Source: a virus
Virus record (IMG/VR): IMGVR_UViG_3300030004_000009
Coordinates: 62,001 to 126,000 of that record
Reading direction: 5' to 3' (one strand)
DNA: 64,000 bases
Shown: positions 3,840 through 57,498 of the stretch, piece after piece
Numbering within the stretch: position 1 is the first letter of the stretch
Layout: every line of letters begins with the position of its first letter
Made by a program: the position numbers and the translations under genes
The notes under the pieces: generated by a model
The model's input: the letters and a program-made list of their open reading frames with translations, nothing else
Told to the model about the DNA's origin: nothing
Database searches by the model: none

Positions 3840-4595
3840 TTAATTAAATTTATTTTCTAATGCTATTAATAGCTTTTGTATATCTACTTTATAAAAACCA
3901 CTACTATTTATACAATTGATTTCTACAATCTTCCAACCATCTGGAGTTTGACAAACATCCATAACAAATGCTGGAGCAACTTTGTATAAATCAACCATTT
4001 GTTGACCAAACTCTAAAGCTTCTGGTTCTACTCCATCTAACCATACAACATTACTATGAAAGAAGTAATAGGAAGAAGTAACAATCTTATCTCCAACTAT
4101 CCATAATCTAACTTCCTTGTAAATAGCTTTTGGAGAAGCTATTTGGATTAATGAATCGTCTGGTATATTTAGACCACTCTGTAGTTTCATATCTTCCCAT
4201 TTAACTTTAGTAAATAGTTTACCATTAAATAACTTACTATCCTTGCACGGCCTAATAAATTTTACTTCATTAAGTTGCCAATCTAAATAGTCTGTATATT
4301 TAATTATTTTACTGTCATAATTTAACATATTATCACCATAATACTTACTATGTATACTAAAATCATGATTACCACCATAAAAAGATCCAGGATAGAAATT
4401 ATATTTTTTAGCTAATCTAGCAAGTTTAACAGAACCAAATACAAATATATCTTTTCTATCTATGTTAAATTCAACTTCTTCAATAAATGGTTTACAATCA
4501 ATAACTTCATAAGCAAGATTAAGACGTTCAAGAGTTTCTATCAGTTTATGATAGTTTTCATACTGAAATGTATTCTTCTGTATTAAATAAAACAT
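3840..4595 (-). CDS. ATP-grasp domain protein (R2K clade)
   Basis: 251 aa. The layout matches the phage ATP-grasp R2K family (PF14243): an N-terminal pre-ATP-grasp region with FVFGSVKLARLAKKY, a middle FTKVKWEDMK segment, IASPKAIYKEVRLWIV at about 155-170 and a C-terminal VMDVCQTPDGWKIVEINCIN, where the acidic and Asn residues bind Mg-ATP. Such enzymes ligate an amine to an acyl-phosphate; the substrates of the phage clade are unknown. It lies 3 nt from the metallophosphoesterase gene. Confidence 0.75.
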   Translation of the reverse strand: MFYLIQKNTFQYENYHKLIETLERLNLAYEVIDCKPFIEEVEFNIDRKDIFVFGSVKLARLAKKYNFYPGSFYGGNHDFSIHSKYYGDNMLNYDSKIIKYTDYLDWQLNEVKFIRPCKDSKLFNGKLFTKVKWEDMKLQSGLNIPDDSLIQIASPKAIYKEVRLWIVGDKIVTSSYYFFHSNVVWLDGVEPEALEFGQQMVDLYKVAPAFVMDVCQTPDGWKIVEINCINSSGFYKVDIQKLLIALENKFN

Positions 4596-4598
4596 AAC

Positions 4599-5249
4599 TT
4601 ATATAAAGTCCTTATAATTTATCATAACTGGATCTCTCACCAGATAATATTGTTCATCTACTAAAGCTACGTTAAGTACTGTTGTCTTATCAGATAAGCT
4701 ATAACAGCCGGCTCCACAATGAATATGCCCACAGATTACTAGTTTAGGATTTACTTCATAAATTCTAGCTAATAACTCTTTATCACCTACTCTTTCAAAG
4801 CTACCTTCTAACTGATCTCCATAACCATATGGTGGACCATGACTGATTAACACATCCGTATCTAATGGCACTTTAGACCATATTTCTTGTAATTCCTGTC
4901 TTGTACTATTAAAAGCCCAACCACAGAAAGCAGGAGTCCATGGAGAACCATAAAACTTAACACCGTCTATGATAACCTCTTCATCTTGAAGATAGATAAT
5001 TGATGGATGCTGTATTAGGGCTTGTCTTATCTTATTCATTCTTATAGGGTCTTCAAAACTTCGTTCGTGGTTTCCTGCACAAAAGATCTTCCAGGTTGCT
5101 GGTTGATTAGCAAACCAGTTTATAAAATCATAGACAACATTAAGTTCACCATTACCTGAAATATCACCTGCATGTATAAGGACATCACATTTTTCAGTTA
5201 TGACTTTACGATGTTGACCATGACTGTCAGCTATTAATTGGAGGAGCAT
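4599..5249 (-). CDS. Calcineurin-like metallophosphoesterase
   Basis: 216 aa with the full metal-binding set in order: DSHG (about 8-11), HAGD (about 26-29), GNHE (about 59-62), SHGPPYG (about 137) and CGHIH (about 173-177). The family hydrolyses phosphomono- or diesters with two metals. The compact size and SHGPP motif resemble the YfcE/Rv0805-like group. Substrate unknown. A second, different metallophosphoesterase lies at 8050-8661. Confidence 0.85.
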   Translation of the reverse strand: MLLQLIADSHGQHRKVITEKCDVLIHAGDISGNGELNVVYDFINWFANQPATWKIFCAGNHERSFEDPIRMNKIRQALIQHPSIIYLQDEEVIIDGVKFYGSPWTPAFCGWAFNSTRQELQEIWSKVPLDTDVLISHGPPYGYGDQLEGSFERVGDKELLARIYEVNPKLVICGHIHCGAGCYSLSDKTTVLNVALVDEQYYLVRDPVMINYKDFI

Positions 5250-5473
5250 TGTGTGGCTAGTTTATGTATTAACTCTTCAGCTTCTACCAGTAAATTATAC
5301 ATTCTATCTTGTTCTTCTTCACTACTATCATGTAGATCTGCTAATTCATCATCGTAGTCTAATATAGACATATGGTCTAGAAATCCAGCAGCATAGTGTA
5401 TAAATTTAGCTTTTATTTGATTATCAGTCATTTTAACTTCTACCATACTGTTCATATTTTCCTCGTATCTCAT
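5234..5473 (-). CDS. Hypothetical protein, 79 aa
   Basis: Not recognised. Predicted largely helical and acidic. It overlaps the 3' end of the adenylyltransferase gene by 41 nt and the phosphoesterase start by 16 nt; internal ATGs at about 5455 could shorten it and reduce the first overlap. Confidence 0.55.
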   Translation of the reverse strand: MRYEENMNSMVEVKMTDNQIKAKFIHYAAGFLDHMSILDYDDELADLHDSSEEEQDRMYNLLVEAEELIHKLATQCSSN

Positions 5474-5981
5474 TTAGTTCTTTATATCTCAACTTAAACT
5501 TACTTCTTAAAAGGCTATATAGTATAGGATTTACTAATCCATCTAAAGGTTGTTCTTTAATTAAAGCTTCACGTACTTGTGTAGCACTTACCAATGGAGT
5601 AGAACCATCATATCTATTAGTAATAGTACAAGTATAACCAGCATCAATTAGTTTTATCACATCTTGTTCATAACCTGAAAAGAATTCAACCTCATGTTTT
5701 CTACAACCCATTAAGGTTATTAAATCCTCTAACATTAGTAACCATTCCTCATCACTATTATGATCTGCTAAACCAATTATATCGAGAATAGGATAAATTT
5801 CTTTAATAAAGCTATGACGATCACTATAGCTAAATAGATTTCTATAATCAAGTGGGCTATTACAACTTCCCAATATCAATTGAGAGTTATGATAATCATA
5901 TTTCTCAAGCATTTGATCAATTATGAACTCATGACCAAGATGTAGTGGGCTAAATCTACCCATATAAATTCCAATTTTCAT
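5433..5981 (-). CDS. NMN adenylyltransferase-like nucleotidylyltransferase
   Basis: 182 aa of the HIGH-type nucleotidylyltransferase superfamily. GRFSPLHLGH at residues 8-17 carries the HxGH ATP site, and SATQVRE near residue 148 is the second signature (ISxTxxR type). Size and motifs fit NadM/NadR-like nicotinamide-nucleotide adenylyltransferases, which make NAD+ from NMN and ATP. It would complete a salvage route with the phosphoribosyltransferase at 54123 and the PRPP-synthetase homologue at 56261. A different nucleotidylyltransferase substrate cannot be excluded. Confidence 0.7.
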   Translation of the reverse strand: MKIGIYMGRFSPLHLGHEFIIDQMLEKYDYHNSQLILGSCNSPLDYRNLFSYSDRHSFIKEIYPILDIIGLADHNSDEEWLLMLEDLITLMGCRKHEVEFFSGYEQDVIKLIDAGYTCTITNRYDGSTPLVSATQVREALIKEQPLDGLVNPILYSLLRSKFKLRYKELNEIRGKYEQYGRS

Positions 5982-6725: not shown

Positions 6726-7415
6726 TCATATTAACATTAACCTATCTACACCTATTGCCCAACCGAAGCCATTCTCATAGGCACCTCCTCCACATATTTG
6801 TTTCTGAGTACCTAAAGCATTCCAACTTATCTCAAAATCTTTACCCTCTTTATAATAATCTAAACCTCTTGTGGCTAACTTATTTACTATAAGGTTATTA
6901 TCAATTAACGCACCATAAATATTATCATGATGTTTATAGTCTTCATATATTACACTTCTTATACCAGCTTCTGCAACACCCATATACCAATCGTACCAAG
7001 AGGTTTCATTATAGTCAGGTTCAGGATTTAAGATTTCTACTCCAAATTGAGTAAATTCTCTATAACGTCCAGCCTGGGGCTTCTCAGCTCTAAAGCACTG
7101 TTGAGTGTAGAATAATTTAACATTCTTTTCATATTTAAAGGTTGTAGTTGCAAGTTTCTGTATTACTGTTGTATATTCAGGGGCAAGACATAAATCTCTA
7201 TCACCTAAATCCTTAAAGTTATACATCATATGATTATTCTCTTTACTAAGCTTACCTAAGTATGTCTTCTGGAACTGTAATACTGGTAATATTATTCGTT
7301 TGAACTCGTGTCTCTTAATATGTTCCTCGAGGATCCTTATGATTTCCTGCTTCTTCTCAGCTTCTTCACCAATTAGTATCCTTGTACCTTTTGTAGTTAA
7401 GTTTTCTATAGTCAT
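6726..7415 (-). CDS. Minimal histidyl-tRNA-synthetase-like class II catalytic domain
   Basis: 229 aa from ATG 7415, chosen because it forms a TAATG junction with the upstream gene. FRAEKPQAGRYREFTQFGVE (about 117-136) is an excellent HisRS motif 2, and CGGGAYENG plus GFGWAIGVDRLML near the end correspond to the HisRS glycine loop and motif 3. Full HisRS has about 420 aa with an anticodon-binding domain; this protein stops immediately after motif 3. It could aminoacylate an unusual substrate or act like HisZ, a catalytically inert paralogue. No tRNA-His is seen in the window. Confidence 0.75.
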   Translation of the reverse strand: MTIENLTTKGTRILIGEEAEKKQEIIRILEEHIKRHEFKRIILPVLQFQKTYLGKLSKENNHMMYNFKDLGDRDLCLAPEYTTVIQKLATTTFKYEKNVKLFYTQQCFRAEKPQAGRYREFTQFGVEILNPEPDYNETSWYDWYMGVAEAGIRSVIYEDYKHHDNIYGALIDNNLIVNKLATRGLDYYKEGKDFEISWNALGTQKQICGGGAYENGFGWAIGVDRLMLI

Positions 7416-7771
7416 TAATTTGTATATTGTATATAAATTACATTTGGATAGTGACCTAGGACTAATAAAGTTACTGGACATAACCACAGATCAAACGACT
7501 CTGGTCTTTCTGTCTCAAAATCTGCTCTATACCATGATCCAACCATCTCAAACTCTTCTTGCTCAAAAGGTAACCATCTATGTAATATAACTATTGTATA
7601 AGGTGTTAGTGTATCTGTTAGACTAACTTCAAGAGTACTCTTATTATGTGATAAGACATCACACAAAGAGTCAGCTCCTGATACCATTTCTAGATCGTTT
7701 TTATCTCCTTGATAATCATCAAGAAAAATAAACCATCTATTATCATCTTCTTTTTTAAATATTAGATTCAT
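7415..7771 (-). CDS. Hypothetical protein, 118 aa
   Basis: Not recognised. Acidic alpha/beta protein with LFDDYQGD-type and WLPFEQEEFEMVGSWY segments. Stop overlaps the HisRS-like start, suggesting coupled translation. Confidence 0.6.
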   Translation of the reverse strand: MNLIFKKEDDNRWFIFLDDYQGDKNDLEMVSGADSLCDVLSHNKSTLEVSLTDTLTPYTIVILHRWLPFEQEEFEMVGSWYRADFETERPESFDLWLCPVTLLVLGHYPNVIYIQYTN

Positions 7772-52730: not shown

Positions 52731-53063
52731 TTATAGTGTATATAATAAAACCTCTCTCAATTTATCTAGTATATCTTTTACATATTTGCTATCAAATTTC
52801 TTCTTAGCAAATTCAATATCATCTGTCCATGATATAGATTCTATATTGTTTATCTTAGCATATGATTTACAACATAGCTTACTGTGTTCTATCTCAACCA
52901 AATTATTGATACCTACATTATCTGTTGACGTTATAGGTACAACTAACCAATCATAAGGTACACCTACTTTATTAGTAAAGATGTGTATACATATGTATGG
53001 TCTTTTCTTTGTTGTGTCATTCTTATCCTTTATGAATAAGAGATTACCGACCTCTGCTTTCAA
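52731..53063 (-). CDS. PemK/MazF-fold-like protein
   Basis: 110 aa. GNLLFIKDKNDTTKKRPYIC then DWLVVPITSTD and SYAKINNIESISW follow the strand order of PemK/MazF or related SH3-like toxins (GD/N..., KRP, P.TS, ...). Key RNase residues are not certain. No antitoxin is evident next to it, so it may be an adapted fold in phage biology. The call is tentative. Confidence 0.45.
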   Translation of the reverse strand: MKAEVGNLLFIKDKNDTTKKRPYICIHIFTNKVGVPYDWLVVPITSTDNVGINNLVEIEHSKLCCKSYAKINNIESISWTDDIEFAKKKFDSKYVKDILDKLREVLLYTL

Positions 53064-53601: not shown

Positions 53602-53796
53602 TTAATTTAAAAGCCTTCTGCTTTTGATCCATTTTGTTGCCATGTGAAGAGTATAACAAATTGCTACTATCACAAATATTACTACTAATATAAAGATATA
53701 GAGCATCACTTTAAGTAAGAAGTACACTAATACAGCTAGTACTATAGCTATAATAATCGATAGGAGAATTACTCCTATAGTTTTAATTATTTTCAT
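53602..53796 (-). CDS. Membrane protein, 64 aa, two spans
   Basis: Two hydrophobic stretches: IGVILLSIIIAIVLAVLVYF and LYIFILVVIFVIVAICYTL, then a basic tail (KWIKSRRLLN) likely on the cytoplasmic side. Overlaps the MazG-like gene by 14 nt. Function unknown. Confidence 0.6.
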   Translation of the reverse strand: MKIIKTIGVILLSIIIAIVLAVLVYFLLKVMLYIFILVVIFVIVAICYTLHMATKWIKSRRLLN

Positions 53797-54139
53797 ATCT
53801 TGGTTTTAATTTTTGTTTTTCTCTTATTTTGATTATAGCTTCAGGTAGAGAGATCCTACTTAATTCTAATTGTTTACAAACTTCTAGATTCTCTCCAAAA
53901 CATGTACACAAAGCTGCTAAAGTAACTATAACTCCACCAACTTCTTGATAAACTTCACCTACTGGTCTATTGTATACATAATCAACCAGCTTTAATACAG
54001 TTTCTCTAGATAGACCAGTTGATTGTACAAGTTCTATAGCTTCTTCAATGAATCTCTGACCTCTCTCATGTTTATCAAATAGAATCTCTTCTCCAAAACA
54101 CTCTATAACCCAATTGTTAACTTTAGTTTGAAAGCTCAT
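53783..54139 (-). CDS. MazG-like nucleotide pyrophosphohydrolase
   Basis: 118 aa. ERGQRFIEEAIELVQSTG (about 25-42) contains the EExxE helix and GEVYQEVGGVIVTLAALC the second acidic helix (E-x-x-x-E/D) of all-alpha NTP pyrophosphatases. MazG proteins hydrolyse NTPs or (p)ppGpp-related nucleotides and are common in phages. It lies beside the NAD module. Confidence 0.65.
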   Translation of the reverse strand: MSFQTKVNNWVIECFGEEILFDKHERGQRFIEEAIELVQSTGLSRETVLKLVDYVYNRPVGEVYQEVGGVIVTLAALCTCFGENLEVCKQLELSRISLPEAIIKIREKQKLKPRYENN

Positions 54140-55772
54140 TTAAAGTTTTATTAATGTTTTCATTAATCCTAGCACGTATCTCAGCTAAAGTTGGATCAAC
54201 TAACAGATAACCATCTTCAAATACAGGTATTAATTCACCACCTTCTTCCTCTTCTTGTGTTACCTGATCAGTTAGGTAGAATTTACCTGATGGGTCTTTG
54301 TCAACTCGAAGTAAACCTTTTGCTGATTTCTTAGTTCCATCGTCTGTAATTGGATCTTTAAAGATTTCACGTTGCTCTATTTCATAGATTGGGTGTTCAG
54401 CTAGCATACCTCCTACAAATTGTTCAATAGGAAAACCTATAAGTTCTAACTCTGTCCCATCTTCTCTTACACCAAAGACTTTATCATCATGGTTAGTTAG
54501 AGTTAATGGATAAGCTACTTCACAATAAGTTGATTTAACTGCAATACCCAGGGAGTCTCTCGTCTGATAATTAAAAGTATAACTGCCTATTCCTAGAACA
54601 ATGTTTGTAGATGCAAAACCTTTAGCTTCAAGACGTTGACAGATTTCTTCTGCACGTTTTAAAGTAATAGAGTCTCCATAGATAGCACCAATATGTGGAT
54701 CAAGAACTTTATAACCTTGTTCATTGATAGTTCCACCAAATACATCCCAAAGAAGTTCAATTACACCTTTTCTAATAGGTGAATTATCGTTTACTGGTGA
54801 GTACCATGCATTTACACCATGTATACTTGTATTAGTTCCACATATAATATCAACTGGATCACCACTATCAGGACGAAGAACAGCTTTACCATCACGTGCT
54901 AAAATTTCATCCTTCAAAATAGGTAAGAATTCAGTTAAAACCTTCCATAGATCATAACTATCACTTACCATTGATACTATACCTGTAGGAAATTGTTGTA
55001 ATATCCTTCTAAATGATAGAAGTTCATTCTCTTTTCCATATGAGGTTGCTATAGAATGCTCGCTAGCAGGAACTGATGAGCCAACAAGCTCCTTCTCTAT
55101 GTTTGCATTATAGTATTCTTCGAGCATTAATACTGCTGGTATTGTATCAGTTCCAGTAAAAGATAGAAGATGACCTGCCTGATTTTGTGTCGACTCTGTA
55201 GAACTACGACCTCTTTGACTAAAGTCATGTCCTTGCCACTGTACTCCTTCAACACTACCTGTAGTTTTCAATGCCCACTTACTCAATAAAAGGCGATACT
55301 GATAACTAACTGTTGCAACTGTAGTTAGATCCCAAATTACTGTTGACATTTGAGTCTCAAGGAAGTTAACTAACCAAGCAAAGTCTGGATGTGTATTTGT
55401 AATTGTGTAGAATGGTACTTTAATTGGAACTATCGAACCTTCTGGTAATGCTTTAATTAGAAGTGGAAGATAACCTAACTCATGTAGTTTCTCTATATGG
55501 TCAGTTGTTACATCCACAAAACTAAAATGTTTATGGAAGCGTTTATATTCTTTAACTATATCCTCAATAGGACGATCAAAGAATAATTCATTCCATTGTT
55601 TATGTAAATATTCTTTAAGATAATAGTTTAAACCAAACCATATCGCATAATCTGTTCCTAACCTTGATGAACGAGGTGTCATATTAGAATATAACTTTGT
55701 CATTCCTTTAGGATAGAATAAATGGTGAAATTGCTTATAGGAATCTGACAGTAATACTGGTAATATTTTCAT
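54123..55772 (-). CDS. nadV: Nicotinamide phosphoribosyltransferase homologue (NadV/Nampt; possibly Namat)
   Basis: 549 aa. DSYKQFHHLFYPKGM at the start, GVQWQGHDFSQRGRSS with the catalytic His/Asp region, MVSDSYDLWKVL, AVLRPDSGDP and GIGSYTFN correspond to conserved blocks of Nampt. The usual product is NMN from nicotinamide and PRPP. In the phage NARP1 pathway a Nampt homologue (Namat) instead joins nicotinamide to ADP-ribose pyrophosphate. The PRPP-synthetase homologue two genes away makes both readings possible. Confidence 0.88.
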   Translation of the reverse strand: MKILPVLLSDSYKQFHHLFYPKGMTKLYSNMTPRSSRLGTDYAIWFGLNYYLKEYLHKQWNELFFDRPIEDIVKEYKRFHKHFSFVDVTTDHIEKLHELGYLPLLIKALPEGSIVPIKVPFYTITNTHPDFAWLVNFLETQMSTVIWDLTTVATVSYQYRLLLSKWALKTTGSVEGVQWQGHDFSQRGRSSTESTQNQAGHLLSFTGTDTIPAVLMLEEYYNANIEKELVGSSVPASEHSIATSYGKENELLSFRRILQQFPTGIVSMVSDSYDLWKVLTEFLPILKDEILARDGKAVLRPDSGDPVDIICGTNTSIHGVNAWYSPVNDNSPIRKGVIELLWDVFGGTINEQGYKVLDPHIGAIYGDSITLKRAEEICQRLEAKGFASTNIVLGIGSYTFNYQTRDSLGIAVKSTYCEVAYPLTLTNHDDKVFGVREDGTELELIGFPIEQFVGGMLAEHPIYEIEQREIFKDPITDDGTKKSAKGLLRVDKDPSGKFYLTDQVTQEEEEGGELIPVFEDGYLLVDPTLAEIRARINENINKTLNELSN

Positions 55773-55816
55773 TTACATTTATTTAAAATTTATTGTTTAA
55801 ATTCGACTACTATTAA

Positions 55817-55888
55817 CTATCTAAAGACTTTACGGAGATTTTCCTTAGCTAGAGATATGAGATTCCCTTCTATATAATTAAGTTCCAC
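55817..55888 (-). other. Short macro-domain-like fragment
   Basis: A GTG-initiated frame of 23 codons reading VELNYIEGNLISLAKENLRK. Macro-domain proteins that bind ADP-ribose begin with a similar NYIEGNLL strand. The rest of a macro domain is missing, so this is either a remnant or coincidence. It sits inside the gap between the NAD phosphoribosyltransferase and the gene upstream. Confidence 0.25.
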
Positions 55889-56264
55889 TTTCTTCCTCCT
55901 CATAGATCTCAACATTATCTCTTACCCATTGCGCTATCTGATGAAAGGTAAAACCTTCATCGTCGTTTAAAAATGATAACATGTTTGATAAATCATTATG
56001 GTTGTTGTGTTCCCACATTAGTTCTTTAGGAACTCTATAACCTTTAGTGTTATTACTATTTAAATAATCACCATATAGATTATGGCTATGAATACCGCAA
56101 ACTAAACCAGCTACTCCTATACAACAGTATCCTATACCTACAGGTCCATATAAATTACGTTTTAAAGCTTCTTTTGCTTGTTTGTATTCACCGCTCTCTA
56201 AAGCCTCAAGCCATTTATCAGCAAACCATTTAGGTAATCTATATTGTTTTTCTGTTTCTATCAT
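55878..56264 (-). CDS. Hypothetical protein, 128 aa
   Basis: WLEALESGEYKQAKEALK then GYCCIGVAGLVCG is the pattern of a small family repeatedly annotated as hypothetical in large phages; function unknown. It lies between the two NAD-module enzymes, overlapping the PRPP-synthetase homologue by 4 nt, so it may be part of that pathway. Confidence 0.6.
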   Translation of the reverse strand: MIETEKQYRLPKWFADKWLEALESGEYKQAKEALKRNLYGPVGIGYCCIGVAGLVCGIHSHNLYGDYLNSNNTKGYRVPKELMWEHNNHNDLSNMLSFLNDDEGFTFHQIAQWVRDNVEIYEEEESGT

Positions 56265-57160
56265 AATTGTATTACATTAAAGTTTCTTCTATCAGTTTGT
56301 TCTTGATAAGAATTTGTTGTATAAATTTCATTTAAGTAACTACCTTCATCATTCTCTTTAAGTAGTATCTCAACACTCTTACTAAAGATCCCATGAGTTA
56401 CAAATAAAGTAATGTGTTTAACAATACTTGCTCCTTCTATTGGTAACCCTAACCTTGTGTGAATAGTTGGATATTTTAAAGTTCTCAATGTTTTAGCTAA
56501 TTCAGTAAATGTACGACCACCATCACATAAATCATCATAAATAATCACATTCTGTTTTAGTAAATCAGGATTAAGTATATCAATACCTGTTATTTCACCT
56601 GTTAAGACATTACGATGTTTATTTGAATAAACAATGTTAATATCTCGCTTAATAATACTTAAGAAATTCTCAATGCGCTTAACTGCTCCGAAGTCTGGAA
56701 CTACAAAGCAAACTTCACTATCTTTATAATCATTTAATTTTAACATTACTTCACTGTCAAGTGGATGTCTTACTTCACAATTACTAAGTAAAGTAGTTGT
56801 AACATTAGAATGCGGTTCATACACAATCACCTTATTAAACTTTAAAGAGTCAATGTCATTACATACTGTCTTAAGATCAAAGCTATCGTGTTCAAACATA
56901 GAACGATCATAACGTGAAGCTAATAAATAGAAAATATGAAGTTGAATATTTATACTTGGATTTACACTTCGTATTATACTTACTAATTGCTTAAGGATGA
57001 AAATATCATCATAATTCTTAATTCTAGTTTTAATAGTAAGATCCTCACTACTTAAAAGGTAATGAGGTTGATCAAGTTTAATATGCTTATGTCCATCAGG
57101 AAATTTAAGAATTTCATATTTAAGACTAAGCTTTGAACTATCAGTTAGGTCTATTATCAT
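56261..57160 (-). CDS. prs: PRPP synthetase homologue (Prs; possibly Adps)
   Basis: 299 aa. NVIIYDDLCDGGRTFTELAK is the PRPP-binding loop, VTHGIFSKSVEILL the C-terminal signature, and RYDRSMFEHDSFDL and VVPDFGAVKRIENF match other Prs blocks. Prs makes PRPP from ribose-5-phosphate and ATP. In NARP1 phages a Prs homologue (Adps) instead pyrophosphorylates ADP-ribose. Its position near nadV supports a joint NAD+ role. Confidence 0.85.
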   Translation of the reverse strand: MIIDLTDSSKLSLKYEILKFPDGHKHIKLDQPHYLLSSEDLTIKTRIKNYDDIFILKQLVSIIRSVNPSINIQLHIFYLLASRYDRSMFEHDSFDLKTVCNDIDSLKFNKVIVYEPHSNVTTTLLSNCEVRHPLDSEVMLKLNDYKDSEVCFVVPDFGAVKRIENFLSIIKRDINIVYSNKHRNVLTGEITGIDILNPDLLKQNVIIYDDLCDGGRTFTELAKTLRTLKYPTIHTRLGLPIEGASIVKHITLFVTHGIFSKSVEILLKENDEGSYLNEIYTTNSYQEQTDRRNFNVIQL

Positions 57161-57498
57161 ATTTTAAATGTTGTTTGAAAATCCGCTAAGTCTTGGTAGT
57201 ATCCTGAGACTTGTAATTGGTTATCAATATAAAATTCAATGTTAGTTCCATATTCAGGATCTACATCATAAACTTTAAATTTGATTACTCTTGTTAATTC
57301 ACCTGTTGGAGCACCAGTCATAGGGTTTTGACTATAAACCTTCTCTTCTTTAATAAAGACTCCAGGTTCTTCTTCTTTAAATTTGTGATTAGTAAAGTAT
57401 TTACTATCTGCAAAAGGTGCTATTGGTTTTATCTCTTTTGGTTCTCTTGTTAACTTATCAAAATGATTTAGATAGAGTTGTTTCTCATATGGTGTCAT
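57157..57498 (-). CDS. Hypothetical protein, 113 aa
   Basis: Not recognised. Beta-rich, with NPMTGAPTGELTRVIKFKVYD. ATGA overlaps with both neighbours place it in the NAD operon. Confidence 0.55.
   Translation of the reverse strand: MTPYEKQLYLNHFDKLTREPKEIKPIAPFADSKYFTNHKFKEEEPGVFIKEEKVYSQNPMTGAPTGELTRVIKFKVYDVDPEYGTNIEFYIDNQLQVSGYYQDLADFQTTFKI

Follow-up and report, generated by a model that had tools for sequence, protein, structure and literature searches.

Adps and Namat homologues in a crAss-like phage: a probable NARP1 module whose operon holds a variable accessory slot

NARP1 is a known pathway by which phages rebuild nicotinamide adenine dinucleotide (NAD+) destroyed by bacterial defences (PMC12774641). 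For its Namat (nicotinamide ADP-ribose transferase) from the Bacillus phage SPbetaL1, structures with 20 NAD+-contacting residues have been described, and a selectivity clamp distinguishes Namat, whose substrate is ADP-ribose pyrophosphate (ADPR-PP), from Nampt, whose substrate is phosphoribosyl pyrophosphate (PRPP) (PMC12774641). In Vibrio phage ICP1, the homologues NrsA and NrsB sustain NAD+ in infected cells with the NAD+-depleting Nezha system (PMC11559045), and RyDEP, an additional gene within a NARP1 operon, proved to be functional by feeding ADP-ribose (ADPR) to the pathway (PMC13232231). Here we analyse a Nampt-like and a Prs-like gene, separated by a single gene, in 64,000 nucleotides of viral DNA (hereafter the window), which correspond to positions 62001-126000 of the 176,703-bp virus record IMGVR_UViG_3300030004_000009. 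We argue that the two genes very probably constitute a NARP1 module. A sequence-only reading of this DNA had noticed the pair and the gene between them, and the open reading frames were confirmed at the following positions:

54123-55772, minus strand: Namat homologue (Nampt fold), P0001, 549 aa
54555-54587, minus strand: codons of the Namat selectivity-clamp helix motif GSYTFNYQTRD, residues 396-406
55878-56264, minus strand: 'CCxGV' family protein between Adps and Namat, P0004, phrog_18067, 128 aa
56261-57160, minus strand: Adps homologue (Prs fold; ADP-ribose pyrophosphate synthetase), P0002, 299 aa

The terminase of the record matches those of crAss-like phages, with 25-28% identity to named members and 41% to an unnamed gut phage, and by this marker we assign the phage to the crAss-like group. 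Based on the same resemblance, its host is likely to belong to the Bacteroidota.

P0001 matches PHROG 448 (E=7.5e-180) and the Pfam family NAPRTase (E=6.6e-37). Its best solved structures are 9w5x and 9w5w (E ~1e-150), followed by human and other Nampts (E ~1e-63). We take 9w5x and 9w5w to represent SPbetaL1 Namat, to which P0001 is 48% identical, because their clamp residues, GSFTYQYNTRD, equal those in the translation of the SPbetaL1 record. The published clamp consensus reads GSX-Phi1-X-Phi2-X-Phi3-TRD, with mainly Asn or Val at Phi3 (PMC12774641). The corresponding helix of P0001, GSYTFNYQTRD, fits this consensus and carries aromatic residues at positions 3 and 7, with Gln as a less usual choice at Phi3. 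In addition, R37 of P0001 aligns with the stacking Arg40 of the SPbetaL1 clamp loop, the catalytic histidine is conserved (H239), and 18 of the 20 NAD+-contacting residues are identical to those of SPbetaL1 Namat, the other two being conservative exchanges (A362 to S368 and F392 to Y398). By comparison, the phage Nampts of QD01, phiKp_10, EC-W1 and GAP32 (all four of those compared) have GG or GK, no aromatics at the clamp positions and no clamp motif. A phylogeny computed with FastTree from 80 sequences places P0001 and SPbetaL1 Namat in one 48-member clade (support 0.946), all members of which possess the clamp motif; the Namat of felixounavirus wV8 was placed outside it. The comparison of active-site residues that the sequence-only reading had proposed thus came out on the side of Namat, with clamp and contacts kept, and the residues and phylogeny together strongly support P0001 as a Namat homologue rather than an ordinary Nampt.

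P0002 matches PHROG 619 (E=5.9e-66), and its best relatives are felixounavirus 'Prs' proteins that are paired with Namat (37% identity). All catalytic motifs, namely FPDG20, RYDR83, EPHS115, PDFGA155, KHR181, DDLCDGGRTF209 and VTHGIFSK254, are present and shared with the SPbetaL1, ICP1, wV8 and Thibault homologues. Of the 88 Namat-family loci, counting the one in the window, 79 contain an Adps homologue, always on the strand of Namat; for three of the remaining loci it is found elsewhere in the record. On homology and its pairing with Namat we identify P0002 as an Adps homologue.

The Namat family also comprises a Namat-like clade (L055, L060, L064, L066 and L069-L088 of the loci compared) that is mostly paired with Adps and lacks the published clamp motif, having an altered or longer sequence ahead of TRD. 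Moreover, several Namat genes contain interruptions of about 0.8-0.95 kb, located around residue 245 in L041, L043 and L044 and at the clamp motif in L038. The latter is an open frame throughout and ends with SHN before Thr, which is intein-like, although Pfam detected no intein domain in it; for the former three, Rfam gave no group I intron match.

The clamp motif, R37, the NAD+ contacts, the clade placement, the Adps motifs and the pairing of the two genes make NARP1 the best explanation of this locus, and we hold it with high confidence. With respect to substrates and in vivo role, counter-defence included, we infer the following scheme: NADase defences of the host would yield ADPR and nicotinamide, Adps would move pyrophosphate from ATP onto ADPR to form ADPR-PP, and Namat would couple nicotinamide to ADPR-PP, releasing NAD+ directly, whereby the phage could keep up its NAD+ against TIR, SIR2 or similar effectors. 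The likeness to SPbetaL1 NARP1 (PMC12774641) extends to both enzymes, the clamp motif, the clamp arginine and the NAD+-contacting residues. However, the SPbetaL1 genes overlap directly, whereas the pair described here is split by the unrelated 128-aa gene, and this phage also encodes a probable nicotinamide mononucleotide (NMN) adenylyltransferase, P0003. ICP1 NrsA/NrsB (PMC11559045), for which there is evidence of NAD+ restoration, are likewise neighbouring Adps and Namat homologues, with identities of about 47% (Namat) and 30% (Adps), but have no gene between them. Some points weigh against the assignment to NARP1. P0001 exceeds SPbetaL1 Namat by 58 residues and has an extra segment at approximately 418-464; P0002 is named Adps by homology and by its Namat partner, as we found no published signature separating Adps from Prs; and a search of 26 further records with a clamp-type Namat, some of which may be fragments, found no homologue of P0003.

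It is conceivable, if unlikely, that counter-defence is not the purpose of the genes and that they instead support metabolism in general by maintaining the NAD+ needed while the phage replicates. Genes of nucleotide metabolism are numerous in large phages, and PaP1, which possesses these genes, still has falling NAD+ during infection (PMC12846349). Yet the chemistry of ADPR-PP is sensible mainly where ADPR accumulates, operons of relatives include ADPR-handling genes (Macro, NADAR), and in the cases tested, NARP1 alleviates the toxicity of NADases or maintains NAD+ (PMC12774641, PMC11559045).

The sequence-only reading had further proposed that the 128-aa gene could be a new component and suggested a survey of its co-occurrence with the two enzymes. 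Its position is indeed suggestive: the genes of the operon are co-directional, Adps shares 4 bp each with the 128-aa gene and, at its 5' end, with the preceding gene (57157-57498), 105 bp lie between the 128-aa gene and Namat, and the slot that the 128-aa gene occupies is filled elsewhere by RyDEP, NADAR, Macro, NMN adenylyltransferase or HAD genes. The RyDEP-containing NARP1 operon of mycobacteriophage DyoEdafos (PMC13232231) provides both a likeness, an extra small gene inside the operon, and a precedent for such a gene being functional, so that P0004 might free ADPR from a host signal as RyDEP does. The survey, however, does not bear this out. While a single-sequence search with the 128-aa protein returned no relatives, a pattern scan based on an alignment of the family (phrog_18067) recovered 255 in phages, and both NARP1 genes were within 8 kb in just 2 of 80 loci (L121 and L124); in L124, Adps and Namat do enclose a family member, together with several other genes. 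Other phages have paralogues of the family elsewhere in their genomes, and different genes occupy the slot in the closest relatives. Furthermore, P0004 belongs to a family different from RyDEP and lacks a RyR domain (PF02026 in Pfam), no match was obtained in Pfam, NCBIfam or the PDB, and its low-confidence model gave no useful fold match; a RyR search of the phage's own genome was also empty, albeit without a positive control. We therefore do not support the gene as a linked NARP1 component, a role that we regard as very unlikely; most likely it is a passenger, in a position where phages differ in gene content.

This variability is of interest in its own right, as HAD, NADAR, Macro and NMN adenylyltransferase genes recur in the slot. 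In the closest relatives it holds a HAD-superfamily protein (L011, L016) or a NADAR domain (L012); in more distant loci, an NMN adenylyltransferase (L077) or a Macro domain (L024, L054) is found there. For Pseudomonas phage Adele, it has been suggested that a Macro gene close to NARP1 releases ADPR for the pathway (PMC12846349). The genes in or beside Adps-Namat operons are:

L012:6693-7193: NADAR
L024:5881-6417: Macro
L054:7259-7768: Macro
L077:7380-7958: NMN adenylyltransferase
L071:10240-10830: NMN adenylyltransferase
L016:7257-7673, L011:7016-7462, L008:5484-5915, L337:3453-3881 (phage DAC15): HAD-superfamily, examples, with about 110 further loci

The HAD proteins form a family of 130-145 aa with intact catalytic motifs. 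We searched it with an alignment of its own, independent of NARP1 sequence, although the seeds were NARP1 neighbours, so that the family is defined from that side, and the loci end where their contigs end. Both Adps and Namat occur no more than 6 kb away in 65 of the 79 viral HAD loci; in these, all three genes share a strand (65/65), gaps are mostly below 100 bp (52/65) and HAD usually stands between Adps and Namat (48/65). The 65 loci collapse into 52 clusters at 90% identity and 12 at 50%. Bacterial loci, mainly from Bacteroidota and Paenibacillaceae, contain all three genes in 53 of 59 cases. Overall, HAD is linked to Adps and Namat in 118/138 phage and bacterial loci, compared to 2/80 for the 128-aa family in the viral collection. 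Adjacent HAD, Adps and Namat genes are found in cultured phages too, namely the crAss-like Bacteroides phage DAC15, Aeromonas phage PhAER-3 and Vibrio phage VPT02, while in Tenacibaculum phage PTm1 HAD adjoins Namat only. The HAD gene of DAC15 is KNU90_gp037. The motif D-x-D-x-T, present in 124 of 125 family members, suggests an active phosphohydrolase; the PHROGs label 'phosphoheptose isomerase' (phrog_1238) is not supported by the HAD motifs.

Based on this linkage, NARP1 is probably often a three-gene system, in which the small phosphatase-like HAD protein, whose gene mostly lies between Adps and Namat, takes a functional part. This makes it a candidate third enzyme that can be tested directly in cultured phages. 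As a guess, it might free ADPR from phosphorylated derivatives, such as 2'-phospho-ADPR from NADP+, or remove pyrophosphate. This association is the most novel outcome of the analysis and concerns relatives of the phage in the window, where the slot is occupied by the 128-aa gene instead; no HAD family member was found in its own genome, one of the searches being without a positive control. The literature searched, which excluded the original NARP1 paper, contained no mention of a link between HAD and NARP1. In phage Phass-1, a gene annotated as nicotinamidase (L342:363-908) is located directly upstream of Adps, Namat and HAD genes.

At a distance of about 49 kb from the pair, as the sequence-only reading had noted and as was confirmed for both reading frame and distance, lies a further gene with a possible role in NAD+ synthesis:

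5433-5981, minus strand: probable NMN adenylyltransferase, P0003, 182 aa, NadM-like domain without a Nudix domain

P0003 matches Pfam CTP_transf_like (E=1e-7), and its motifs, GRFSPLHLGH at residue 8 and SATQVR at 132, conform to the patterns GRFxPxHxGH and SxTxxR. A profile built from P0003 and two homologues retrieves NMN adenylyltransferases first (E=6e-13), and NCBIfam scores favour the same activity, yet under the curated cut-offs. A fold comparison of its model, which is of moderate confidence (pLDDT 69), with the PDB gave NMN adenylyltransferases in each of the first ten places, with PPAT ranking lower. P0003 is thus most likely an NMN adenylyltransferase, as predicted from sequence and model. 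A separate Nudix hydrolase gene (Pfam E=9.9e-13), the product of which might act on ADPR or related nucleotides, is located just outside the window (genome 127141-127614; L116:2141-2614). Around P0003, genes for ATP-grasp (R2K), metallophosphoesterase and HisRS-like proteins form a cluster (window 3840-4595, 4599-5249 and 6726-7487).

In vitro, SPbetaL1 Namat can also use PRPP and nicotinamide to form NMN (PMC12774641). Given this retained activity and the likely identity of P0003, a second NAD+ route through NMN, from PRPP, nicotinamide and ATP, is plausible though unproven, and P0003 could cooperate with Namat in it. The claim that the phage is equipped for either or both routes hence stands for NARP1, with clamp, clade and Adps motifs in its favour, and is reduced to a possible NMN route via P0003. 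The crAss-like phage would in this way join those apparently able to remake NAD+ from the debris of defence, possibly with an NMN route besides. We rejected NMN adenylyltransferase as a conserved NARP1 partner; its absence from the 26 other clamp-type records makes the link of P0003 to NARP1 a weak one. A scan of close relatives likewise yielded no homologue, and divergent ones occur only in L071 and L077, beside or inside the operon, where the transferase has no clamp motif.

That the pair represents an ordinary Prs and Nampt, which together with P0003 would constitute a self-contained, NARP2-like NMN salvage pathway with its own PRPP supply, is very improbable: the phage does encode an adenylyltransferase, L071 and L077 have such a gene next to or between their Prs-like and Nampt-like genes, and SPbetaL1 Namat makes NMN in vitro, but P0001 groups with Namat and has the full clamp that phage Nampts lack, L071 and L077 belong to the clade without it, and the adenylyltransferase here is far from the pair, with no counterpart in the other clamp-type relatives that were searched. 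In comparison to NARP2, or NadV plus NadM salvage (e.g. GAP32), the phage shares an encoded NMN adenylyltransferase; it differs in that this gene is unlinked and without a Nudix domain, and in that its transferase is a clamp-type Namat, whereas NARP2 is defined by a Nampt without the clamp.

The Adps-Namat operon is flanked by two genes:

53783-54139, minus strand: gene overlapping the 3' end of Namat, P0005, 118 aa, phrog_14118/8593, MazG-like by eye only
57157-57498, minus strand: gene overlapping the 5' end of Adps, 113 aa

P0005, which overlaps Namat by 17 bp, was rejected as a NARP1 component, since none of the 87 other Namat-family loci holds a homologue. No regulatory RNA, including NAD+ riboswitches, was found in the window, and the number of promoters near the operon was not above that in shuffled sequence. 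Approximately 1 kb downstream of Namat, the window encodes a PemK/MazF-like protein (52731-53063; Pfam E=1.6e-4, just short of the curated cut-off). The phage also possesses RNA-repair-type genes (RlaP, a PNKP phosphatase domain and an RNA ligase) as well as nucleotide-metabolism genes, among scanned reading frames that lie mostly in the window.

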